Assembly: GCF_009429125.1 (NCBI RefSeq)
Contig: NZ_CP045529.1
Coordinates: 1,364,001 to 1,428,000 of the forward strand
Reading direction: 5' to 3'
Source: Luteimicrobium xylanilyticum
GTDB lineage: Bacteria > Actinomycetota > Actinomycetes > Actinomycetales > Cellulomonadaceae
DNA: 64,000 nucleotides
The position numbers and the translations under genes were made by a program. This document shows positions 7,786-51,912 of the stretch, piece after piece (the first letter of the stretch is position 1; every line of letters begins with the position of its first letter). A model generated the notes under the pieces. That model was given only the letters and a program-made list of their open reading frames with translations. It did not search any database and was not told where the DNA came from.

Positions 7786-9264
7786 ATGACCACCACCGGA
7801 GCACCTGACGCCCTGTCCACCGCCGACACCGGTCTCCCGCTCGCCGGGCCGGAGCCGGCGCCACCGTGGCGCGCCCTCCCCGTGCTGCTCGCCGGGACGT
7901 TCCTCGTCGTCCTCGACTTCTTCGGGGTGAACGTGGCGCTGCCCTCCCTCGCGGCCGAGCTCGGCGCCGACCCGAGCGCGATCGTGTGGGTCGTCGCCGG
8001 GTTCGCGCTCGCGACGGCCGCCACCCAGCTCCTCGCAGGTCGGCTGGGCGACCACGTCGGGCACCGCCGGGGGTTCGCCGTCGGCCTGGCGGTCTTCACC
8101 GCCGCGTCGTTCGTGTGCGCGGCCGCCCCCGGTGCGACCGTGCTCGTCGCGGCACGCGTCGTCCAGGGCGTCGGGGCCGCGTTCATCGGGACGAGCGTCC
8201 TGTCGATCGTGGGCGTGAGCTTCGCCGGTGGGGCTCGCGCCCGGGCGCTCGCCTGGTACGGCGCGGTGCTGGGCGTCGCGGCCGCGGGCGGACAGCTCGT
8301 GGGCGGCGCCCTCATCGCCGCGGACGTCGCCGGCCTGGGCTGGCGCGCGATCTTCGCCGTGAACGTCCCCGTGGGCGTGCTCGCGCTCGTGCTGACGCCG
8401 AGGCTCGTCCCCGTCACCCGAGGCACGCGGTCCGGGCGCCTCGACGTCGCCGGCATGGTCCTCGGGGCGCTCACCATGGTCCTGCTCGTGCTGCCCCTCG
8501 TGCAGGGCCGGCAGGCCGGCTGGCCCCTCTGGACCTGGGTGAGCCTCGCCCTCGTGCCCGTGCTCGGCACGGCGACCTACCGGCACGGGGACCGCGTCGA
8601 GCGGGCCGGCGGGCAGCCGCTGCTGCCGCCCTCGCTCCTGCGTCGCCCCTCGATGTCGCTCGGTCTCGTCGCGCAGCTCGTCTACTGGTGCGGCCAGGCG
8701 TCCTTCTACTTCGTGCTCGCGCTCTACCTCCAGGACGGCCTCGGTCTCACGCCCCTCGACGCCGGTCTCGTGTTCGGGGTCCTCGCCGTCGGCTACCTCG
8801 CCACGTCCTTCCGGGCGCCCGGCCTCGCCGTGCGCCACGGGCGCCGGGTCGTGGTGGTGGGGCTCGTCGCGATCCTCGCCGCGTACGGCGCGCTCGGGCT
8901 CGCCCTGGTGGCCGCTCCCGACGGCACCGGTTCCACCGTCGCCGCCCTCGTCCCCGGGCTCCTGCTCGCGGGGGCGGGCCAGGGACTGTGCATCGTGCCC
9001 CTGACGGCGCAGGTCCTCGCGCACGCCGACCCCCGGCAGGCGGGGTCGGTGTCGGGGGCCCTGCAGACGGCGCAGCAGGCCGGGAACAGCGTGGGCGTCG
9101 CCGTCGTCGGTGTCGTCTTCTACGGTGTCCTGGGAGCCGCGGGCGGGACCGTGGGCCACGCGTTCGGCGCGAGCCTCGTCGCGCTCGCCGCGGTCGGCGC
9201 CGCCGCGCTCGCCGCCGTCGGGCTGCCGGCGCTGGTCCTCACCCGCTCGCGGGCCGAGGCGTGA
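7786..9264 (+). CDS. MFS drug/proton antiporter, DHA2-like
   Basis: This 492-residue polytopic protein has about 14 hydrophobic segments. Signatures are VVLDFFGVNVALPSLAAELG (TM1, typical of DHA2/EmrB-QacA pumps), GRLGDHVGHRRGF (motif A between TM2 and TM3) and RVVQGVGAAFIG (TM4 motif B). It probably exports toxic organic compounds using the proton gradient; substrates are unknown. The promoter is a textbook MerR target and a MerR regulator with an effector-binding domain follows 46 nt downstream, so expression is likely induced by the pumped drug. Confidence 0.88.
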   Translation: MTTTGAPDALSTADTGLPLAGPEPAPPWRALPVLLAGTFLVVLDFFGVNVALPSLAAELGADPSAIVWVVAGFALATAATQLLAGRLGDHVGHRRGFAVGLAVFTAASFVCAAAPGATVLVAARVVQGVGAAFIGTSVLSIVGVSFAGGARARALAWYGAVLGVAAAGGQLVGGALIAADVAGLGWRAIFAVNVPVGVLALVLTPRLVPVTRGTRSGRLDVAGMVLGALTMVLLVLPLVQGRQAGWPLWTWVSLALVPVLGTATYRHGDRVERAGGQPLLPPSLLRRPSMSLGLVAQLVYWCGQASFYFVLALYLQDGLGLTPLDAGLVFGVLAVGYLATSFRAPGLAVRHGRRVVVVGLVAILAAYGALGLALVAAPDGTGSTVAALVPGLLLAGAGQGLCIVPLTAQVLAHADPRQAGSVSGALQTAQQAGNSVGVAVVGVVFYGVLGAAGGTVGHAFGASLVALAAVGAAALAAVGLPALVLTRSRAEA

Positions 9265-34080: not shown

Positions 34081-34192
34081 ATCGTAACGGTTTGCACCGA
34101 TTGTGTGGGTGCTGGTTTGCGCGCCGACGTGCGGATTCGAGGGTGGCAGCGCTGTTCGCAGCGGTGTCGGTGCCGAGTGGGAGGGTGACCTT

Positions 34193-35395
34193 GTGACGTT
34201 GCAGGGGTTCCGAGTCGAGCTTGCGCCCAATCCTGTTCAGGCGGACCGCCTAGCGCAGCACGCTGGCCTACACCGGGTTGTCTTCAATCACTGCCTGGCC
34301 CACGTCAAAGCTGTGATGGGGCAGCGGGCCGCTGAGCGCACCTACGGGCTGGCGGAAGGTGAACTAACGCCCGCGGCCTCATGGTCGGCGCCCGAGCTGG
34401 AGAAGTACTGGCGCCGGACACACGCCCAGGTCTACCCGTGGTTCACCGGCGAGGGTTTGTCCTCACGGGTTCCGAAGGAAGCGTGCCGGGCGTTGGCGTC
34501 GGCGTTGTCGAACTGGGCTAAGTCAAAGGCCGGCGCCCGGAAGGGTCGGCGCGTCGGGTTCCCCAGGTTCAGGCGGCGTAAGGATGGCGCGACCTGCCGG
34601 TTCGACGCCCGCACCGCCTACCCCGCCACCGCGCGGTCGGTGCACGTGCCCACAGTCGGGAAGGTCGCTGTGCGCGAGGATATGGGCTGGTTGACCGATC
34701 GGATCGCCGACGGGCGGGCCCGGGTTCTGGGTTCACGGTTCGAGCGCCGGGCCGGGCGGTGGTGGCTCTCCTTCCAGGTGGAGGTCGACCGCGCCGACCT
34801 CAACACTCGCCGGGCTGTACCCACGGGCGCCGCGGTCGTCGGGATCGACCTTGGGATCAAGACGTTCGCCACGGTCGCCGACGGTGACGGGAAGGTGACC
34901 AAGGTCGCGAACCCGCGCCACCTCGGGCGCGAGCTCCGCCGGCTGCGACGGGCGAACAAGGCCCTGGCACGCAAACGGAATGGCTCCGCGAACCGCGCCA
35001 AGGCTGCCCGCACGGTTGCGCGCGTCCATCTGGACGTAGCCCACGCCAGGGCCGACTTTCTGCACAAGCTCACCACGACACTGACGAGAACCAACTCAGT
35101 GCTCGTGATCGAGGACCTGTCGGTCGCGGGCATGGTCCGTAACCGGCGACTGGCCCGGCACATCGCCGACGCCGGGTGGGCCGAGTTTCGCCGGCAGCTT
35201 GAGTACAAGGCCAAGTGGTACGGGTCGAAGGTAATCGTCGCGGACCGGTGGTACCCCTCCACCCGCACCTGCTACGCCTGCGGGCACGTCCATCCCGGTC
35301 TCACACTGGCCGACCGGACCTGGACCTGCCCGTGCGGGACTGCCCACGACCGCGACCACACAGCCGCCCTCAACCTCCTACGACTCGCCGCCTGA
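34193..35395 (+). CDS. tnpB: TnpB-like RNA-guided nuclease (IS200/IS605 OrfB)
   Basis: The 400-residue protein opens QGFRVELAPNPVQADRL, the usual OrfB entry. RuvC-like motifs are complete: VVGIDLGIKTFA (Asp), VLVIEDLSVAGM (Glu) and CGTAHDRDHTAALNLL (Asp). A zinc ribbon, CYACGHV...TCPCG, lies between the last two. TnpB proteins cut DNA guided by an RNA from the element's right end. No TnpA recombinase is nearby, so the element is solo and would need a helper in trans. GTG 34193 is preceded by GGGAGG with 8 nt spacing. Confidence 0.9.
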   Translation: MTLQGFRVELAPNPVQADRLAQHAGLHRVVFNHCLAHVKAVMGQRAAERTYGLAEGELTPAASWSAPELEKYWRRTHAQVYPWFTGEGLSSRVPKEACRALASALSNWAKSKAGARKGRRVGFPRFRRRKDGATCRFDARTAYPATARSVHVPTVGKVAVREDMGWLTDRIADGRARVLGSRFERRAGRWWLSFQVEVDRADLNTRRAVPTGAAVVGIDLGIKTFATVADGDGKVTKVANPRHLGRELRRLRRANKALARKRNGSANRAKAARTVARVHLDVAHARADFLHKLTTTLTRTNSVLVIEDLSVAGMVRNRRLARHIADAGWAEFRRQLEYKAKWYGSKVIVADRWYPSTRTCYACGHVHPGLTLADRTWTCPCGTAHDRDHTAALNLLRLAA

Positions 35396-35510
35396 CACAC
35401 AAGACTCACGGTCGCCGGGCAGTTCCCCGGAGACCCAAAACGCCCGTGGAGGCCACGTCAGACCCTGAACCTTCAGGGCAGAGGCCAAGGAAGCAGGAAG
35501 AGAGAATCAC
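35396..35510 (+). ncRNA. Putative omega-RNA scaffold / right end of the TnpB element
   Basis: The ~115 nt after tnpB contain CCCGTGGAGGCCACGTCAG, familiar from right ends of actinobacterial OrfB elements, and the perfect hairpin CCCTGA-ACCT-TCAGGG (35463-35478). The guide would be read from whatever lies beyond the right end, here the tadA remnant starting near 35511. The exact end is uncertain. Confidence 0.5.
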
Positions 35511-35558
35511 TTGAGATTCCTCGAACGGTCGAGTGAACGGCGGGACCGACCGCGCGAG

Positions 35559-35783
35559 ATGCGCGAGCTCGTGCGCTGCCGGCGCATCGCCCCCACGGGC
35601 GACGCGGCGGCTACACGGCAGCTCGTCGCCGACGCGCTGAGCGACAATGACGAGCCCATCGCGCAGGGCTTCGTCCCGGCGCTGGGCGACCCGCGGGGTC
35701 GCCCAGCGGGTACTCGACGTCGTCGCCGGCTTCGGCCCGCTCCGACCGTACGTCGACGACCGGGAGGTCGAGGAGGTGGTCGG
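35559..35783 (+). pseudogene. Truncated, frameshifted 5' stub of tadA/cpaF (Tad pilus ATPase)
   Basis: Two adjacent frames match the N-terminal region of TadA ATPases. The first gives DAAATRQLVADALSDNDEP...VPALGD (about 35600-35690). After a frame change near 35690-35700, the second gives QRVLDVVAGFGPLRPYVDDREVEEV (to about 35778), the GLGPLEPLL-DDPEVEEI block. Homology stops abruptly where the minus-strand gene ends at 35784. Walker motifs are absent, so the ATPase is lost. The orientation matches the tadE/tadG remnants at 43979-44616. Confidence 0.7.
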
Positions 35784-36452: not shown

Positions 36453-38099
36453 GTGCCTATCGAGTACGGAGAAGTCTTCACACGCCGCTGGGTCGTTGAG
36501 ACCCTCCTTGACCTCACCGGATACACCGTTGACCGCGACCTCGGCACGATGCATCTGCTGGAGCCGTCCTGTGGGTCGGGCGCGTTCCTCGGGCCCGCTG
36601 TCGAGCGCCTCATTGAATCGGCGCAAGCTCACGGCCGCGTGCTTGCCTCACTCACCGATGCAGTGCGGGCCTACGAGCTGCAGGCAAGCCACATCGCAGC
36701 CTCTCGCGAGCTGTGCCGTCGGCTCCTGGTTGACGCTGGGATGAGCGATCGCTCTGCTGCGAACCTCGCTCGCACGTGGGTGCGGCACGCAGACTTCCTG
36801 CTCGATCAGGTGGAGGACCGGACAGCGGACGTGGCCATCGGTAACCCTCCGTACATCCGCTACGACGACCTCGATGATGACACGGCAGCGACCTACCGGG
36901 CCACATGGTCGTCCATGAAGGGTAGAGGCGACATCTACGTCGGTTTCATCGAGCGCAGCCTGGCGATGCTAAAGCCCGGAGGGCGGGTTGGCTTCATCTG
37001 CGCCGATAGGTGGATGCGCAACCAGTACGGGGCGGGGCTGCGCGGTCTCGTCGCCGAGCGTTATGCGGTCGAGCACGTCTGGACCATGCACGACGTCGAC
37101 GCTTTCGAGTCCGAGGTGTCCGCCTACCCGGCGATCACGGTGCTGGCCAACCGTCGCCAGGGCTCCGCAGTCGTCGCTGACACGACTGCCGAGTTCAGCA
37201 AGAGCTCGGCCTCCGCGCTGGTCAAGTGGTCGGGCGACGAGTCGCTAACGGACTTTACCGACGTCGGCGTCCAGGCCCACAGGTTGCCCCATTGGTTCGC
37301 GGGCGACGATCTGTGGCCGACCGGGTCGCCAGCGCGCCTGGCCCTCGTGGAACTGCTCACTGACCGATTCGGTTCGCTCCACGATCCCGAGACCGGCACA
37401 AAGGTCTCGATCGGAGTCGCCACCGGCAACGACAGGGCGTACGTGACCAAGAACCCGAAGGCCGCTGAGGCCGACCGGATGCTGCCGCTGGCCATGCGCA
37501 GGGACCTTATGTCGGGAACCTTCGACTGGCAGGGCAACTACCTGGTCAATCCGTGGGATGTCGACGGAAACCTCGTCGATCTAGCCGACTACCCGCGTAT
37601 GGCGGAGCACTTCGCCGGTCACCCGGAGCTCAAGCAGCGCTTTGTCGCCCGCAACAACCCCAACCGGTGGCACCGCACAATAGACAAGGTTCACGCCGAC
37701 CTGACCGCCCAGCCGAAACTGCTGCTTCAGGACATGAAGGCCCACATCCACCCCGTCCTGGAGCCGGGGGGCTTCTACCCGCACCACAACCTGTACTACG
37801 TCGTGTCGACGACCTGGGACATGGAGGTGCTCGGGGGCCTGCTGCTCTCCCGCGTCGCGCAAGCCTTCATCGAGGCCTACTGCGTTCGCATGCGTGGTGG
37901 GACGCTGCGCTTCCAGGCGCAGTACCTCAAGAAGATCCGTGTCCCTGGCCCGGAATCGATTTCCGACGATCTCGCCGGACGGCTGCGCACAGCGTTTGCC
38001 GACCGCGACGTCGACGCAGCCACGGTGGCCGCCGCCGAGGCATACGGGATCGACCCGGCCGCGTACGACGTCCTGACTTCGTCCGACACGGAAGAGTGA
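36453..38099 (+). CDS. N6-adenine DNA methyltransferase of a PaeR7I/XhoI-type R-M system
   Basis: The 548-residue protein has EPSCGSGAFLGP (AdoMet motif I) and VAIGNPPYIRYDD (catalytic NPPY), then a long C-terminal target-recognition region. This is the gamma-class layout of stand-alone Type II adenine methylases such as M.PaeR7I. The following gene is a PaeR7I-like nuclease, so the expected target is CTCGAG with methylation of A. GTG 36453 follows TAGGGT by 6 nt, so the methylase is probably translated from a leaderless mRNA. Confidence 0.85.
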   Translation: MPIEYGEVFTRRWVVETLLDLTGYTVDRDLGTMHLLEPSCGSGAFLGPAVERLIESAQAHGRVLASLTDAVRAYELQASHIAASRELCRRLLVDAGMSDRSAANLARTWVRHADFLLDQVEDRTADVAIGNPPYIRYDDLDDDTAATYRATWSSMKGRGDIYVGFIERSLAMLKPGGRVGFICADRWMRNQYGAGLRGLVAERYAVEHVWTMHDVDAFESEVSAYPAITVLANRRQGSAVVADTTAEFSKSSASALVKWSGDESLTDFTDVGVQAHRLPHWFAGDDLWPTGSPARLALVELLTDRFGSLHDPETGTKVSIGVATGNDRAYVTKNPKAAEADRMLPLAMRRDLMSGTFDWQGNYLVNPWDVDGNLVDLADYPRMAEHFAGHPELKQRFVARNNPNRWHRTIDKVHADLTAQPKLLLQDMKAHIHPVLEPGGFYPHHNLYYVVSTTWDMEVLGGLLLSRVAQAFIEAYCVRMRGGTLRFQAQYLKKIRVPGPESISDDLAGRLRTAFADRDVDAATVAAAEAYGIDPAAYDVLTSSDTEE

Positions 38100-38101
38100 C
38101 C

Positions 38102-38809
38102 ATGACGACCTTTGAGGACTATGACGCTGCGATCCGCGCATTATGGGCGGGACGCGACCTGCAAACACAGAAGCAGATCGAATCCGGCAGGATCGACGCC
38201 GGCACACGGGGATCGACCACGGGGGGAAAACACCTCGATCCGCTTCAGGAGCTAGTTGCTGAGCAGTTCGAACCGCTCCTGCAGATTGGTGCGAAGGTGC
38301 GCTCCACGGGCGTCCTCACGCTTCCCGGCTGGTATCGGCGCGCGAAGAACTGGGACATCGTCGTGACCTACGGCGACACCCTGATCGCGGCAATTGAGTG
38401 CAAGTCGCAATCCGGCTCGTTCGGCAACAACTTTAACAACCGGACCGAGGAAGCCATCGGCAACGCGGTGGACCTTTGGCGCGCATACGAGGCTGGGCAC
38501 CTCGGCCGCGTGAGGCCGTGGCTCGGCTTCATCATGGTTCTGGAGCGGTCACAAGGATCGCTGGAGTCTGTCCGGGACCGCGGCGTGCCGATCTTTCCGG
38601 TCGATGAGCGCTTCCGCGATACGTCTTACACAGACCGCTACGCGATCCTGTTCGACCGGCTGGTTAAGGAGCGGCTCTACGACGCGGCCTGCCTCATTTC
38701 TGCCGAGAAAGGCAAGGGGATCCACTCCGAGCCGCTGGAAGAGGTTTCGACGAAGAATCTGACCGCCGCCATCGCGGGTCGCGTGGAATACATCAAGGGC
38801 CTCGCGTAG
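38102..38809 (+). CDS. PaeR7I/XhoI-type Type II restriction endonuclease
   Basis: The 235-residue protein is about the length of R.PaeR7I (~246). Its signature is LIAAIECKSQSGSFGNNFNNR then TEEAIGNAVDLWRAYE; the E-x-K within IECKSQ is the likely metal-binding part of the PD-(D/E)xK active site. The family cuts CTCGAG. It starts 2 nt after the methylase stop. Such sites occur in the surrounding host DNA (for example 1043-1048 and 1163-1168), so host survival depends on the methylase. Confidence 0.85.
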   Translation: MTTFEDYDAAIRALWAGRDLQTQKQIESGRIDAGTRGSTTGGKHLDPLQELVAEQFEPLLQIGAKVRSTGVLTLPGWYRRAKNWDIVVTYGDTLIAAIECKSQSGSFGNNFNNRTEEAIGNAVDLWRAYEAGHLGRVRPWLGFIMVLERSQGSLESVRDRGVPIFPVDERFRDTSYTDRYAILFDRLVKERLYDAACLISAEKGKGIHSEPLEEVSTKNLTAAIAGRVEYIKGLA

Positions 38810-39297
38810 TCTCGGGGCCGCGCGAAGTAGTTGCGAACCGCTTGCTGGTTGTGGCTTTCGAAGTACCGATGACGTCCGGGCAGTGCCGATCAGGTCACTT
38901 ACCTGGCCCCACATGCCGCCAAGTCGTTACCGAGTAGCGGACGCGCTCGGTCGAGTGCGCCTTGGAACATAAAGTCGATATGACCGTGCCAATCACGGTA
39001 GCCGTGGGCGCAGCTCTGGGGTGCCAGACGAGCACGCCCTCAGGGCGACCGTCGCCGTGCAGGTCCAAGCAACGCAGCAACGTGCGCCCCTTGGAGCGAC
39101 CATGTGGGAGCTCCTTACACACGCCGGTCGACGAAGCCAAACCGCCGGGGGTGAGCTTTCGCTGATCCTTCGTTCGACGGCGTTGGTCTTGTCGAGCCAG
39201 CTCCTCGCGCGACGACGGGGTACGCGACGACGGTTGTGGCAGGCGCTTGATAGGTCGCCAAACTGCCGACGCGCGACCTGTGACATGCTTGCTCACT
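38810..39297. other. Gene-poor gap
   Basis: Nothing I can support lies in these ~490 nt between the restriction gene and the Zn/HTH gene. Short open frames exist on both strands but show no family features or good starts. The composition is mixed and may be remnant mobile DNA. Confidence 0.5.
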
Positions 39298-39726
39298 GTG
39301 TGGACGGTGCGGCAGCTGACGGAGGAGCTGGGCGTTCGCGAACACCGGATCGCACGACTCGCGCGCACCTGGGGATGGAAACGCGGCGGCCCGGCATGGA
39401 GTTTGACGGACGAGCAGGCCGATCGGATCCGGGAGCACGTTCGCGGATGGGATGCGAGGACCCCAGTGGTGTGCAGCGTGGACGGGTGTGACACGCGCGC
39501 GGCGGCGAAGGGGATGTGCCATGCTCACTACCTTCGTGTCTGGCGGCACGGGTCGACCGAGGCGCGGACAGGTGGCGAGCACCAGCGCGCGAAGACCCAC
39601 TGCCCCCACGGTCACGAGTACACGCCCGAGAATACGTACCGATTCGCGGACGGGCGGCGACGGTGCAGGGCGTGCAGGCTGAAGACAGCGAGTGTGTCAG
39701 CTCATGTCGGAGTGGCACTCGGGTGA
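39298..39726 (+). CDS. Phage-type HTH + zinc-binding (HNH-like) protein
   Basis: The 142-residue protein starts WTVRQLTEELGVREHRIARLARTWG, a helix-turn-helix. The C-terminal half has paired zinc motifs, CSVDGCDTRAAAKGMCHAHY and HCPHGHEYTPENTY...CRACRLK. The latter block is often seen at the end of phage and mobile HNH nucleases, but a clear HNH active site is not visible, so it may be a truncated nuclease or a DNA-binding accessory protein. GTG 39298 is inferred from where the HTH begins. Confidence 0.6.
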   Translation: MWTVRQLTEELGVREHRIARLARTWGWKRGGPAWSLTDEQADRIREHVRGWDARTPVVCSVDGCDTRAAAKGMCHAHYLRVWRHGSTEARTGGEHQRAKTHCPHGHEYTPENTYRFADGRRRCRACRLKTASVSAHVGVALG

Positions 39727-40445
39727 AATTGCCCTCCTGGCTATGGCGCAACTTGGTTGCCCCTGCTACGTTCCGGCGTCAGACGCTTCGACGACGAGCA
39801 GGGGGGACATGTACGGGTTTCGCGTGTATGAGCTTTGGGCTACCCAGGGTGCGACAGGACGGGCGCACCTCGAGATTGACGGCCCGTTGGCGCCGCAAGA
39901 GCACCTCATTGATGTCTTGGTCGCGCTCACCGCGGACCTCGGCGCTCGGGGCTTGTTGACCGACATCCCCAAGTTGCAGCATCCTGAGGAGTGGGAAACC
40001 GCGCCATTCCCCGATCTTCGGACGCCTCAGATGCAGATAGTGGAGGCTCGCGAGCTTGACAGACGCCGTCTGTTTCTAAAGTTCAAGTTTGGACGATATG
40101 GAGAGTATGGCGAGGCCATTGGCCCATCAGGATCGATCGATCTCCATGACGCAGCGGCGGTCCATGAGTACCGCGCCATGTTTTTTCTGCCCGAACATGG
40201 GAAGGTTGGGCGGATCGCTGTTGAGGCCATCGGGACAACTTGCCCTGATGTGATGCTCCTGCCCTGGCTTGGTTACGCGTCGTACCAGCGGGACAAGAAC
40301 GCGTGGTTCCGGCTGAAGTGGAAGCAGGTCGCCGACAGGGCGCGGATCATCGCGATGCTCAAGAACGCCGAGAAGGTTCAGGCCGAGCTGACCCAGAAGC
40401 GGCCGGCTGAGCCTGGACGTGGTGCAGGAGTAAAGGCGAAGCTTA

Positions 40446-41400
40446 GAGCGTTATTCAGCGGCTGTGGTCGGGTCGTGTGGCTGCTGGCGCCTGACCTGCG
40501 TCGGTGCTGGTCAGGGTCAAGTTCAGGCAAGTAGCGCAACGGTCCTCGCGTCCGGTTTGATCCAGGTTGTCTACGCCAGGATCGAGCACGAACGAAGGAC
40601 CGATGCGCTACCACTCTACGTGCGGGCTGACCCCCGCCCAGACGACCGAGCTGATCGCCCGCGCCTGGCAGGTCCACACCGGCCGACCCCGACCCGAGCG
40701 GTACGAGTTCGAGCTCGGGTTCGGACGCGCCGTCACGATGATCCTGATCAAGGTGCGTCACAACCTGGCCCAACAGCTGACCGGGGACCTGTTCGGGATC
40801 GCCCAGCCCACCGTCTCGCGGATCTGGCGGTACCTGATGCCGATCATCGGGCAGGTCACCGCGATGGACCGTCGACACCTGCGCGACGCCCTCGAACGCG
40901 GCACGGTCTTGATCGACGGCACCCCGATCCCTACCGGAAACAGGGCCGGCACCGGCACGACCAACTTCAACGCGAAGCACCGCAAGCAGGCCCTCGGCGT
41001 CCAGGTCGCCGCGTTCTTCGACGGCACCCTGGCCGACGTCTCGGCCCCCGTGCCCGGATCACGGCACGACTCCCGCGCCCTGGACGAGGTCGGCTGGGCC
41101 GAACAGATCACCGCCGCCCGCACGCGCCGCACGGTCGCGGTCCTGGCCGACACCGCCTACGTCAAGCACACCCGCCTGACCCCGCGCCGCAAGACCAGGG
41201 GCGCGCCCCGCACCGACGCGGACCGCGAGCACAACCGTCACATCTCGTCCCTGCGCGCCCCGGTCGAACGCACCATCGCGCTGCTCAAACAGTGGAAGAC
41301 CCTGTCCGCCGGCTACCGCGGACGCCTGACCGAACTACCAAGCGTGATCCACATGATCGTCAACCTCGAGTTCTACCGCCAAGCCACGTGAATAACGCTC
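40446..41400. mobile_element. IS5-like insertion sequence, 955 bp
   Basis: Perfect 12-bp terminal inverted repeats GAGCGTTATTCA (40446-40457) and TGAATAACGCTC (41389-41400) are flanked by the target duplication TTA (40443-40445 and 41401-41403). One transposase fills the element, its stop codon lying in the right repeat. The intact ends and duplication indicate a recent insertion. Confidence 0.92.
40603..41391 (+). CDS. IS5-family DDE transposase (DDE_Tnp_4 type)
   Basis: The 262-residue transposase has an N-terminal HTH (FGIAQPTVSRIWRYLMP) and a DDE core: GTVLIDGTPIP (Asp), VPGSRHDSRALDE (Asp) and LRAPVERTIALLKQW (Glu). GAAGGA precedes ATG 40603. It appears complete and catalytically competent. 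Confidence 0.9.
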   Translation: MRYHSTCGLTPAQTTELIARAWQVHTGRPRPERYEFELGFGRAVTMILIKVRHNLAQQLTGDLFGIAQPTVSRIWRYLMPIIGQVTAMDRRHLRDALERGTVLIDGTPIPTGNRAGTGTTNFNAKHRKQALGVQVAAFFDGTLADVSAPVPGSRHDSRALDEVGWAEQITAARTRRTVAVLADTAYVKHTRLTPRRKTRGAPRTDADREHNRHISSLRAPVERTIALLKQWKTLSAGYRGRLTELPSVIHMIVNLEFYRQAT

Positions 41401-41754
41401 TTACCTACAACGTCGAGGGAAAGTACGCACTTGACGGCATCATCAACGTGGCACTGGGCTGGACGGAGCGTGCGAGTGACTCTGACTACGTCGTCCGTAT
41501 CGAGCGGATTGCCGGATATGATCCTGAGACGCTCGACGCCGGCGGCCTTCGGTTTGACGATGCATCGATCCGTGTGACAGAAGACGGCAGATCCAAGACG
41601 ATCCGGCCCGATTCGATCCGGGCGCTCTTCACTTATCCACTGGCTGCAGATGTTCAGCCGGCGGACGATGCATGGATCGACGGGGTGCGGCTCGGGCTGG
41701 CCGGGACTCTGTCGGATGGCACTGATATAACGATCTGAGTCGGGAGGAGGCCTT

Positions 41755-42327
41755 ATGCTGCGAGCGCTCGTCGAGCTCTTCGCCCGTCACTGGCAGGGGT
41801 TGAGCAACCTCCAGAACCACAGTGGCGGAGCGCCGCGGTGGGTGACACGCGCGGTGCTATACGGAGCACCGGTGATGGCGGCGGGTGTTGCGATCTGGCA
41901 GAGTTGGGGTGTTCGAAGTGTCGCGGACACCCTCATTGCGGCTTTCTCGCTCCTGACCGGCGTTCTAATCGCGGTGTTCGCGCAGATCGCTGGCTGGCGA
42001 ACCCGTCTCGATGACCGTGCGTCGGATCGCCCGGTCTCCGAGGCGCCCGCTCGGCGCGCCGTCGATGCCACTGCGGCCCATGCGCTTGTGGGCGTGGTGG
42101 CCTGTTGTCTCGCGACCGGGACGAGTGTGTTGGCGAAGGTTGAGATTCCGCCAGAGCGTGTCTGGAGCGGCCTGTCGGTCGGCCTTGCGCTGTACGTTGC
42201 TCTGCTCATCTTGCTCATCGTCGGTACGGTCTTCGGCGCCTACCAGGACAACGTCGATCCGGCCGTCCGGGAGGCCGATGACGACCTTCAGCGGCCCGAG
42301 AGTCGAGAGCTTCGGATCGCCGCCTAG
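41755..42327 (+). CDS. Four-helix membrane protein of unknown function
   Basis: The 190-residue protein has four hydrophobic helices: AVLYGAPVMAAGVAIWQSW, TLIAAFSLLTGVLIAVFAQI, ALVGVVACCLATGTSVL and GLALYVALLILLIVGTVFG. The ends and the loop between helices 2 and 3 are charged. GGAGGAGG precedes ATG 41755. It follows the IS-interrupted gene with 16 nt spacing and looks like its partner. A soluble protein paired with a small membrane protein is a common form of phage-defence modules, but no family is recognised here. Confidence 0.65.
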   Translation: MLRALVELFARHWQGLSNLQNHSGGAPRWVTRAVLYGAPVMAAGVAIWQSWGVRSVADTLIAAFSLLTGVLIAVFAQIAGWRTRLDDRASDRPVSEAPARRAVDATAAHALVGVVACCLATGTSVLAKVEIPPERVWSGLSVGLALYVALLILLIVGTVFGAYQDNVDPAVREADDDLQRPESRELRIAA

Positions 42328-42500: not shown

Positions 42501-43181
42501 ATGATTCTCGTTGCCGCCTCGCACGGTCCCTGGTACAACTGGCTCACGCCAGCTGTTGCCGTGTCGATCCTCGCCCCCCTCCTTGCTTTGGTCGGCGTGA
42601 TTCTCACGGTGTGGCGAAGCGGGGTCAACGCGATCAACGCCGAGAACGCCCGTGCCCAGAGCGCGATTCACGCGGAGAACGTCCGCGCATCGAATGCGAT
42701 TGCTGCGGAGGATCGACGGGCAGCCGCAGCTATAGAGGCCGAGGACCGTCGGCATGCCCATGACCTCGAACTCGATTTGGCGCGGCGGCTACGGGACGAT
42801 CAACGGGTCGCGTACGAGAGGCTTGCTGGAGCACTGACCAGTGTCGCCAGCCCGTTGGGCTATTTTGCAATGGGAGTCGAGGGTACTACGTTGGGCAATT
42901 ATGGTGAAAGGCAACTGGAATTGCTGGAAGCGGCTGTTCGGGCAATCGACGACGCTCTAGAGGGCCATGCTCTCTACATCCCAACGGATATACGGCTCTC
43001 CGCGGGTCTTGTCTCATCCGACGCCTTCATGGTCCAGGTCTATGCGGGAAATCTCCGCGATGACGAAGGGGGCTTGGAGAAGCGCCGGGAGTACGCAAGG
43101 AAGGCGCGCAATCTATCAGTTGAAGTGATGACCACGTTGCGCGCGGGTGTCGGCCTCTCCGACAAGAGAGTCGACAAGTAG
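42501..43181 (+). CDS. Membrane-anchored hendecad coiled-coil protein
   Basis: The 226-residue protein has one N-terminal membrane helix (AVAVSILAPLLALVGVILTVW), then four exact 11-residue repeats: AINAENARAQS, AIHAENVRASN, AIAAEDRRAAA and AIEAEDRRHAH, an undecad coiled coil. A helical C-terminal domain follows. ATG 42501 follows TAAGGT by 6 nt (leaderless pattern). The next gene starts 2 nt after the stop and has the same TM plus coiled-coil plan. The gap before it (42328-42500) shows nothing. Confidence 0.65.
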   Translation: MILVAASHGPWYNWLTPAVAVSILAPLLALVGVILTVWRSGVNAINAENARAQSAIHAENVRASNAIAAEDRRAAAAIEAEDRRHAHDLELDLARRLRDDQRVAYERLAGALTSVASPLGYFAMGVEGTTLGNYGERQLELLEAAVRAIDDALEGHALYIPTDIRLSAGLVSSDAFMVQVYAGNLRDDEGGLEKRREYARKARNLSVEVMTTLRAGVGLSDKRVDK

Positions 43182-43183
43182 CT

Positions 43184-43741
43184 ATGGCGGCGTTGTGGTC
43201 CATCGTCGGTGTGATCGTCGGTGCGGTTCTTGGGTCACTCGGTCAGGCATACCTTGAGGACCGACGCTACGAACGCGACAAGGCAGATAGAGAGCGTGAA
43301 GAGCGCAAGGCGGCGTATGGTGCGCTGCTAGCAGCGACAAGCCAGTACGCTATAGCTCTCAGCGCGGTTAGCAGTGCGCTTCAGTCTGAACCACGCGGTC
43401 TCATGATGTTGGCGTCCAGCACACAAAAGGAACCGTCAGGTGCCTTTGTTGAAGCGGCGGATCACCTTCAGGATACCTTTGTCCAGACTCTTGACACCGC
43501 GGGCATGGTGTCCCTGCTTGGCTCGAAGGAAGTTGATAAAGCGGTGAACCAAATGCTCCGCCGCTCCACACTGCCGGACCGCGGCAAGACCAGCGTCGTC
43601 CTATGGGCTTCGTCGATTCAGGTCCGGTCCAGCAACGTGATTAGCGAGCGCCGGAACATTCTGACGGCGATGAAGGCGGACCTGGCGTCAGCCGATGATG
43701 TGAAGCGAGACCGCAAGCGCAATAAGAGCAGCGAGATCTGA
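43184..43741 (+). CDS. Membrane-anchored coiled-coil protein, partner of the preceding gene
   Basis: The 185-residue protein has an N-terminal helix IVGVIVGAVLGSLGQAYL, then a highly charged helix (EDRRYERDKADREREERKAAYGALL) and a mostly helical C-terminal domain. It begins 2 nt after the upstream gene and shares its architecture, so the two products probably assemble together at the membrane. No family or reaction is recognised. Base composition is visibly less GC-rich than the flanking core genes. Confidence 0.6.
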   Translation: MAALWSIVGVIVGAVLGSLGQAYLEDRRYERDKADREREERKAAYGALLAATSQYAIALSAVSSALQSEPRGLMMLASSTQKEPSGAFVEAADHLQDTFVQTLDTAGMVSLLGSKEVDKAVNQMLRRSTLPDRGKTSVVLWASSIQVRSSNVISERRNILTAMKADLASADDVKRDRKRNKSSEI

Positions 43742-43978: not shown

Positions 43979-44164
43979 GTGAGTGTCGTACCCGCCCTGC
44001 GAGCGCCGCAGGGAACCATCGGCCGCTCGCACCGACGTCGAGGACCAGTGGCGCTGCCGCTGGTGCCGGCGTTCGTGCGCGCCCACGTGCCGCTCGCGGT
44101 GCCCGTCGAGGCGACCGCGCACGGCACCTTCCCGCGCTACGCGGACCTGTCGGGGTGGCCGTGA
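43979..44164 (+). pseudogene. Likely C-terminal remnant of a TadE-like pilus protein
   Basis: The frame ends PAFVRAHVPLAVPVEATAHGTFPRYADLSGWP, similar to the end of TadE-type proteins. The N-terminal membrane helix expected of TadE is missing; upstream sequence belongs to the minus-strand phage-like gene. Its stop overlaps the start of the Tad-domain gene (GTGA), the normal operon junction. Confidence 0.5.
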
Positions 44165-44616
44165 ACCGCGGGGAGGACCGGGAGTCCGGTCAGATCATGC
44201 TGCTCACGATCGGCGTCGTGGTGCTCGCGCTCGCGCTGGTCTTCGCGGTCGCGTCGGCGTCGTCGGTCCACCTGGAGCGCAAGCGCCTGTACGACGCTGC
44301 CGACCAGATCGCGCTCGATGCCGCCGACCGGCTCGACCGTGGCCGGTACTTCGACCAGCTCGACGCCGGGGTGACCCCGCAGGTCGTGATCTCGGACGCG
44401 GACGTCCAGGCTGCGGTCGACGCGGTCCTCGCGGACTCGCCCGAGCTGTTCGACGGATACCAGGAGGTCCGGGTCGTCGACGCGCCGACGCCGGACGGCC
44501 GGACCGCGGAGGTCGTCCTGCGGGCGCGCGTCCGCCCGACTCTGCTGACGTGGGCGACCGCGGCGTCCTCCGGTGGCGTCGTGGTGACCGCGGACGCCCG
44601 CGCCCGCGCGGACTGA
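44161..44616 (+). CDS. Tad/TadG-like pilus assembly protein
   Basis: The 151-residue protein begins RESGQIMLLTIGVVVLALALVFAVASASSVHLERKRLYDAADQIALDA: the ExGQ start, membrane helix and Ala-rich follow-on of Tad (PF13400-type) proteins. The rest is probably extracytoplasmic. It would belong to a Flp/Tad pilus system, but the ATPase and platform genes are missing from this locus, so it is probably a non-functional leftover unless another tad set exists. Confidence 0.75.
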   Translation: MNRGEDRESGQIMLLTIGVVVLALALVFAVASASSVHLERKRLYDAADQIALDAADRLDRGRYFDQLDAGVTPQVVISDADVQAAVDAVLADSPELFDGYQEVRVVDAPTPDGRTAEVVLRARVRPTLLTWATAASSGGVVVTADARARAD

Positions 44617-45482: not shown

Positions 45483-46598
45483 GTGGCGACCATCGACTTC
45501 CCGGCTGAGATCAGGGCCCTCCGTACCACCCTCGAGTCGATCGAGTCGGTGAGCGACCCCGCGGCGCTCGAGAAGAAGGTCGCCGAGCTGTCCGAGCAGG
45601 CCGCGGCCCCCGACCTGTGGGACGACCCCGAGGCCGCCCAGAAGGTCACGACTGCGCTGTCGCAGACGCAGGCCGAGCTGGACCGCGTCACGAACATGGC
45701 GAGCCGGATCGACGACCTCGAGACGCTCGTCGAGATGGGGACCGAGGACGGCGGGGACGCGGAAACCCTTGCCGAGGCGGAGGGCGAGCTCGCCGCCATC
45801 CGCAAGGACCTCGATGTGCTCGAGGTCCGGACGCTGCTGAACGGCGAGTACGACGCCCGCGAGGCCGTCGTCACGATCCGCGCCGGCGCGGGCGGCGTCG
45901 ACGCCGCGGACTTCGCGGAGATGCTGCTGCGCATGTACCTGCGCTGGGCGGAGCGCCACGGCTACGGCACCCAGGTCCTCGACACCTCCTACGCGGAGGA
46001 GGCCGGCCTGAAGTCGGCGACGTTCGAGGTCAAGGCGCCGTACGCGTACGGCAACCTGTCCGTCGAGGCCGGCACCCACCGCCTGGTCCGCATCTCGCCG
46101 TTCGACAACCAGGGCCGTCGGCAGACGTCGTTCGCCGCGGTCGAGGTCATCCCGCTGATCGAGCAGACGGACAGCATCGAGATCCCCGAGTCGGAGATCA
46201 AGGTCGACGTGTTCCGCTCGTCGGGACCCGGCGGGCAGTCCGTCAACACCACGGACTCCGCGGTCCGGATGACCCACATCCCGACCGGGATCGTCGTGTC
46301 GATGCAGAACGAGAAGTCGCAGATCCAGAACCGCGCCGCCGCGCTCCGCGTGCTCCAGTCGCGCCTCCTGCTGGTCCGCCAGCAGGAGGAGGCCGCGAAG
46401 AAGAAGGAGCTCGCGGGCGACATCAAGGCGAGCTGGGGCGACCAGATGCGTTCCTACGTCCTGCAGCCGTACCAGATGGTCAAGGACCTGCGGACGGAGC
46501 ACGAGGTCGGGAACCCGTCTGCCGTGTTCGACGGCGACATCGACGACTTCATCGAGGCCGGGATCCGCTGGCGCCGGGGTGCGTCGCAGGCCTCCTGA
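45483..46598 (+). CDS. prfB: Peptide chain release factor 2
   Basis: The 371-residue protein has the RF2 anticodon-like region with [15 protein letters not shown] (SPF) and the catalytic GGQ in [17 protein letters not shown]. It ends translation at UGA/UAA. It is encoded in one frame; the autoregulatory +1 frameshift of many bacterial prfB genes is absent, as is usual in actinobacteria. GTG 45483 lies 8 nt after TAGGGT, without a good Shine-Dalgarno. Confidence 0.95.
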
Positions 46599-51538: not shown

Positions 51539-51904
51539 GGGGGTGATCGGTTTCGACGGTGGTCGTGCTTCGAGGAGAAGCGGGCCGAGGACGCAGGCTT
51601 ATCTCGTTAACGATGCCTGCAAACCCATAGGTGCCGATTCCAAGCGCACCGACTTCGCCCTCGCCGCCTGAGCGAGGCTTCGAAGTCCGTCAGCCCGGGG
51701 ATGCTCTCGCCCCGGTTCCTGGCGTCATCTAGAGAGCCACTGCTTGCTGCGCACGTCAACGGCGTAGCAGGGACTTTTAGTTGACTGAGCCCGTCAGCAC
51801 CTTGTCTGCGTGAGTGCTGGGGCCGAGAAAAACGACAGCAGACTGCGCCCGGAGAAGTCCTGGATCTGCGTCACCGGACCGGGGTTCGATTCCCCGCACC
51901 TCCA
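51539..51904 (+). ncRNA. ssrA: Transfer-messenger RNA
   Basis: The 5' end GGGGGTGATCGGTTTCGAC and 3' end GGTTCGATTCCCCGCACCTCC are the tRNA-like halves; GGGGGTG (51539-51545) pairs with CACCTCC (51897-51903). The T-arm GGTTCGATTCC is intact and CCA is not encoded. The resume frame at 51633-51668 encodes ADSKRTDFALAA, followed by TGA, a typical actinobacterial tag ending in ALAA for proteolysis. SmpB is encoded just upstream. Confidence 0.96.
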
Positions 51905-51912
51905 CCCGTGTA

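Follow-up and report, generated by a model that had tools for sequence, protein, structure and literature searches.

We found that two adjacent genes in the 64,000-nucleotide stretch analyzed here (the window), part of the complete 4.2-Mb genome of a soil bacterium in the genus Luteimicrobium, very probably constitute a RexAB-type exclusion module of actinobacterial temperate phages. The module appears to have been left in tadA by prophage decay, after which an insertion sequence (IS) recently broke its rexA gene. Here we describe the gene pair, its homology and operon-like order, its prophage origin as seen by comparison with related genomes, and the IS disruption.

An IS splits the rexA-like gene

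The rexA-like gene lies on the forward strand in two parts, 39809 to 40445 (212 codons plus one base) and 41404 to 41738, because a 955-bp IS at 40446 to 41400 (+) interrupts what is otherwise one 323-codon open frame. The IS ends in 12-bp perfect inverted repeats, GAGCGTTATTCA; it is flanked by a TTA target-site duplication (left copy, 40443 to 40445; right copy, 41401 to 41403) and carries a DDE transposase gene (40567 to 41391, +) that matches PF13359 (E = 2.7e-20) and PF13613. As the earlier note had proposed, excision of the IS and one TTA restores the frame: the joined parts amount to 972 nt, or 323 codons and a stop with no internal stop, and read ...VKAKL-TYNVEG... across the junction. 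This join reflects more than chance, because an intact homolog in Luteimicrobium album (NBRC 106348) is also exactly 323 amino acids (aa) long, is colinear with both halves, and is gapless at the junction. The first part is 45% identical to this protein and matches profile A2 with an E value of 3.4e-85; the second is 59% identical and matches with an E value of 3.4e-40. AGGGGGG precedes the ATG at 39809, and in the alignment this ATG falls on the GTG start of the L. album homolog. Two other readings of this region were rejected on the basis of the same homolog, namely, that the IS joins two unrelated open reading frames and that rexA starts upstream, at 39692, since the L. album protein begins at the residue that matches the ATG at 39809.

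Four identical full-length copies of the IS are present in the genome, with 3-bp direct repeats of TTA, TAA, TAA, and TGG. Because the copies are identical and each has such a repeat, insertion into rexA was probably recent. The sole near match to a plasmid was the IS itself, in Xylanimonas, and comparison with Escherichia coli DNA gave no match. The strain is predicted to be capable of making only a truncated RexA, about 242 aa long and ending in a tail encoded by the IS; therefore, the module should be inactive in this strain despite the intact rexB.

An intact rexB-like gene encodes a predicted four-helix membrane protein

The intact rexB-like gene (41755 to 42327, +) encodes a membrane protein of 190 aa; its start, behind GGAGGAGG, lies 16 bp downstream of the rexA stop codon. 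Good ribosome-binding sites precede both genes, and, the IS aside, both frames are open. The L. album genome has the same arrangement, with the 323-aa homolog followed by a membrane homolog of 192 aa that is 63% identical to the window protein. The product had previously been described as a four-helix membrane protein, a description that agrees with its AlphaFold2 model (pLDDT 81), which contains four long helices plus an N-terminal helix, and with its relatives, but not with hydropathy, which at the threshold used gave just three clear membrane segments. The four-helix count is thus best regarded as a prediction from the model and the relatives.

Both proteins have published relatives, and the two genes are consistently paired

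No curated family clearly recognized either gene in Pfam, NCBIfam, PHROGs, and PADLOC scans, and sequence profiles gave only chance matches when compared with the PDB. When the intact L. album protein was searched by tblastn against 50,697 phage records, only the Gordonia phages Toast and PCoral7 were recovered (gp42, E = 6e-7), and the search of plasmids recovered one Rhodococcus opacus plasmid protein (E = 3e-9). Scans of viral contigs with close-relative patterns yielded few or no further phages. Tblastn also connected Toast gp42 to gp30 of Mycobacterium phage Butters (E = 2e-22) and Toast gp41 to Butters gp31 (E = 1e-11). Toast gp42 is listed as a RexA homolog; the purified protein is a dimer and binds DNA nonspecifically (Adams et al. 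2024, PMC11077077). Butters gp30 and gp31 are a RexAB-like defense pair (Mageeney et al. 2020, PMC7542560). Since these published proteins are sequence relatives of the window pair, the earlier view of the pair as unrecognised and undescribed has to be given up. What is new is this member of the family, its prophage history at tadA, its disruption by an IS, and the existence of copies outside obvious prophages.

The soluble-protein profile alone was run over 222 genomes of the same family, 396 of the order, and 395 of the class. True soluble homologs were found in eight further genomes, and a membrane homolog lay directly downstream in 8/8, as detected with a separate membrane profile (E = 5e-23 to 3e-49); one additional match, in genome G089, was discarded as a UvrC-like protein. 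When L. album, Toast, Butters, and the Rhodococcus plasmid are counted with these eight, the membrane gene adjoins the soluble gene in 12/12 homologs examined, the opposite of the pattern (homologs that never neighbor the membrane gene or defense genes) that the earlier note had said would count against its reading. In trees of both proteins, the window groups with L. album and genome G176, which indicates that the two genes travel together. Both trees also put the window pair on the Toast/Butters side, away from CarolAnn and Sbash, on long branches, with weak support for how the window clade is placed with respect to Toast and Butters.

In genome G732 (L065:6407-14000), the RexAB pair sits directly beside apparent type I restriction-modification genes, with resolvase genes and no repressor seen, and it is possibly a stand-alone defense copy. 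On R. opacus plasmid pCP105 (L008:15589-16951), TIR-domain and caspase-family genes lie about 6 kb from the RexAB pair, and this region is possibly a defense cluster.

Profiles and folds connect the pair to the CarolAnn and Sbash systems

Deeper profiles extended the homology to experimentally characterized phage systems. When 13-sequence profiles were compared with CarolAnn, Sbash, and Sejanus, hhalign gave 85.5% over 246 columns for the soluble family and 76.3% over 113 columns for the membrane family, and 0/200 column-shuffled controls came near either score. With 5-sequence profiles and single CarolAnn proteins the match was weak, and the CarolAnn link thus comes from the deeper profiles. 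Among viral structures, the best match to the window membrane model was Sbash gp31 (probability of 1.00, rmsd of 4.0), with a modest E value of 3.7e-3. The second match came from Siphoviridae sp. ctylc9, a phage that also supplied the second match of the soluble-protein model (AlphaFold2 on the L. album sequence, pLDDT 78, 7-row alignment), one of four phage proteins that this model matched at E values below 0.001. The tblastn match to Toast gp42 and the CarolAnn/Sbash profile match make the soluble protein a homolog of described actinophage RexA-like proteins, and the profile match to CarolAnn gp43 and Sbash gp31, together with the Sbash gp31 fold, makes the product of 41755 to 42327 an adjacent, downstream RexB-like homolog with four long helices in its model.

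Lambda was not reached by these methods. In a Foldseek search of the PDB, the soluble model had no significant match, and lambda RexA (8twq) was absent among the 50 matches listed. For both lambda RexA and lambda RexB, hhalign scored no better than with shuffled sequence, even when merged profiles were used. The proposed relation to lambda RexA/RexB draws instead on the literature and on architecture. One could take the missing lambda link, along with the lack of a match in any model library, to mean that the pair is an undescribed defense module unrelated to Rex. We consider this highly improbable, as Toast gp42/gp41 and Butters gp30/gp31, to which it is directly related in sequence, have been published as RexAB-like and as profile and fold links lead from it to CarolAnn and Sbash.

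The pair lies in the probable remains of a prophage at tadA

Related genomes point to how the pair may have reached this locus. In Luteimicrobium genome G002, the tad pilus cluster beside prfB is intact, including tadA (PF00437). The L. album tadA is interrupted by a prophage of ~38 kb, and the two tadA parts match G002 positions 8308 to 7845 and 7850 to 7070, with a 6-bp overlap, as expected for a serine-integrase site. The prophage encodes a terminase, a portal protein, a serine integrase, an M78 (IrrE-like) peptidase, and a Cro/C1-type helix-turn-helix (HTH) protein, and its gene order is HTH gene, a 221-aa probable repressor that matches no Pfam family, rexA, rexB, peptidase, and integrase. 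The same order is seen in Toast (apart from small genes) and in Sejanus, and a lysogeny-region location of the pair is seen in L. album, Toast, and genomes G137, G185, and G176.

The window retains the edges of this locus and little of the prophage. A frame-disrupted 5' fragment of tadA/cpaF (pilus ATPase), the host gene that holds the related L. album prophage, lies at 35527 to 35777 (+), as identified by blastn to L. album and G002 and by tblastn, which places it in two frames. The right host flank consists of TadE-like remains of the tad pilus cluster (44048 to 44616, +; tblastn to G002 tad proteins), with about 90% nucleotide identity to L. album from 44048 on, and prfB follows at 45483. 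Between these flanks are genes for a type II DNA methyltransferase of the Eco57I/N6_Mtase type (36453 to 38099, +; Pfam PF07669; PADLOC PDLC03313, E = 1.8e-190) and an XhoI-type restriction endonuclease (38105 to 38809, +; Pfam PF04555, E = 9e-53), followed by an HTH/zinc-ribbon-like (zinc-finger) gene (39247 to 39726, +). The zinc-finger gene is 81.5% identical in nucleotide sequence over 384 bp (39313 to 39693), and ~80% identical in amino acid sequence over 134 aa, to an L. album prophage gene that sits beside the left attachment site. Downstream of rexB, the place of the related prophage's M78 peptidase and integrase is occupied by two small adjacent genes (42501 to 43741) for a membrane-anchored coiled-coil-like protein (42501 to 43181, +; no Pfam or PADLOC match and one partial match in 98 relatives) and a second, small protein of this kind (43184 to 43741, +; no curated family match in Pfam or PADLOC). 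The GC3 of rexA and rexB is 0.68 to 0.75, far below that of prfB (0.97), and tblastn found no repressor, peptidase, integrase, or structural genes in the window. The most plausible reading of this locus in the window is that a relative of the L. album prophage decayed there and that its exclusion pair survived until the IS struck rexA; this origin is suggested by the zinc-finger gene, the pair itself, the GC3 values, and the locus. The earlier description of the region as a defense-rich island holds insofar as the XhoI-type restriction-modification system adjoins the pair, but the region is better read as a prophage relic.

Prophage decay also raises the question of whether the pair was inert debris, functionless in its host even before the IS arrived. 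The phage body, repressor, and integrase are gone, and the promoter from which such pairs are expressed in lysogens, being linked to the repressor, was presumably lost too. We regard this as doubtful, though, as neither frame is interrupted by anything but the IS and both have good ribosome-binding sites, and as the identical IS copies imply that the break was probably recent compared with the disappearance of the phage body.

Several further features of these loci were noted. An ImmA/IrrE-type (M78-like) peptidase gene lies beside RexAB in Toast, Sejanus, and L. album and, by sequence similarity, in G137 and G185 (L007:10440-10886, L069:4626-5069, L009:2636-3088 [L. album], L057:8489-8935, and L055:6636-7031), and it is absent from the window. 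In L. album contig NZ_BSUK01000001.1, the left part of the prophage is present three times, including an integrase-to-zinc-finger (attP-like) junction, and tadA 3' sequence stands at the contig start; these repeats suggest a tandem or excised active prophage or a contig-end overlap. The sequence at window positions 34158 to 35530 recurs twice, at ~79% identity, in other parts of the L. album genome and is absent from the corresponding L. album site; it probably represents another mobile element beside the tadA fragment. A tmRNA gene, with the tag ADSKRTDFALAA, occupies 51539 to 51906.

Discussion

CarolAnn, Sbash, and lambda suggest by analogy how the pair would work. The soluble RexA-like protein (Toast gp42 is a DNA-binding dimer) would sense an infecting phage and act on its four-helix membrane RexB-like partner, whose disturbance of the membrane would then halt growth of the infected cell and abort phage production. 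Each of these properties (DNA binding, sensing, the membrane effect, and abortive infection) is ascribed to the window pair from its relatives. CarolAnn gp44/gp43 and Sbash gp30/gp31 have been shown experimentally to be two-gene abortive-infection systems (PMC6426606, PMC6426596), and RexA of Pseudomonas putida RexABpp acts through RexB on the membrane (PMC12894663). The earlier proposal of a soluble-plus-membrane pair, disarmed by an IS and probably serving in phage exclusion or defense, agrees with our results, which place the pair beside a restriction-modification system, and by the same analogies we take this to be probably a defense pair.

The roles of the two proteins could also be reversed. 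Butters gp30 blocks phages by itself, an effect that gp31 weakens (PMC7542560), and the corresponding model would make the soluble protein the antiviral effector, restrained by the membrane protein until infection. The plain tblastn link from Toast to Butters and the position of the window pair on the Toast/Butters side of both trees speak for this model, which also tolerates an IS in rexA, as without rexA the effector would be gone and the keeper that stayed behind would be harmless. On the other hand, the branches are long, the position of the window clade with respect to Toast and Butters is poorly supported, and both genes are required by most of the Rex-like pairs that have been tested (PMC6426606, PMC12894663). 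We hold the Butters version to be possible, if on the improbable side; given the weak support for the placement, we prefer the commoner two-gene model.

A role in the lysis-lysogeny decision must likewise be weighed, in which RexA would bind DNA and bias the repressor switch, with exclusion as a by-product. Lambda RexA stabilizes lytic growth and Toast gp42 binds DNA nonspecifically (PMC11077077), and a repressor adjoins the pair in Toast, CarolAnn, and probably L. album and G137. Yet the pair is also found where no obvious repressor is present, beside type I restriction-modification-like (L065) or toxin-antitoxin-like (L064) genes, and in the window it stayed, with rexB open, after the repressor was lost. 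These observations make a mainly regulatory role unlikely, and a RexAB-type exclusion module remains the reading that we favor.

With these results, the range of the published actinophage RexAB-like pairs takes in Cellulomonadaceae and related bacterial genomes, where some copies lie outside obvious prophages; the family escapes recognition by curated model libraries (Pfam, NCBIfam, PHROGs, and PADLOC). The intact L. album prophage copy and the decayed, IS-broken window copy at the same locus form a paired natural comparison that bears on whether RexAB modules serve the phage or the host. A speculative extension, which we would not expect to hold but which the neighborhoods bring to mind, is that some actinobacteria keep RexAB as a host defense after prophage decay, standing alone by restriction-modification systems (XhoI type in the window; type I-like in G732), and that the adjacent M78 peptidase is a recurrent third component in intact prophages.

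Among known systems, lambda RexA/RexB shares with the window pair the order of a soluble gene followed by a four-helix membrane gene, and a repressor-adjacent position with the relatives of the window pair, but no sequence homology was detected for either protein and the fold link was not recovered. CarolAnn gp44/gp43, Sbash gp30/gp31, and Sejanus gp46/gp45 share gene order, architecture, and profile-profile homology in both genes, and Foldseek indicates a membrane-protein fold common to Sbash gp31 and the window protein; in contrast, these pairs form a separate deep branch in both trees and lie beyond the reach of pairwise sequence search. Butters gp30/gp31 belongs to the same family, with about 20% identity over the full length and a soluble plus four-transmembrane pair for which defense has been shown experimentally, although the Butters pair lies away from the repressor and its published model makes the soluble protein the effector. 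Toast is an intact phage, whereas the window has no repressor, protease, or integrase and its rexA is split by the IS. Toast gp42 and gp41 are both sequence relatives of the window pair (about 24% and 27%, respectively) in the same gene order, and, as in the L. album prophage, a repressor lies upstream of them and a metalloprotease and an integrase lie downstream.
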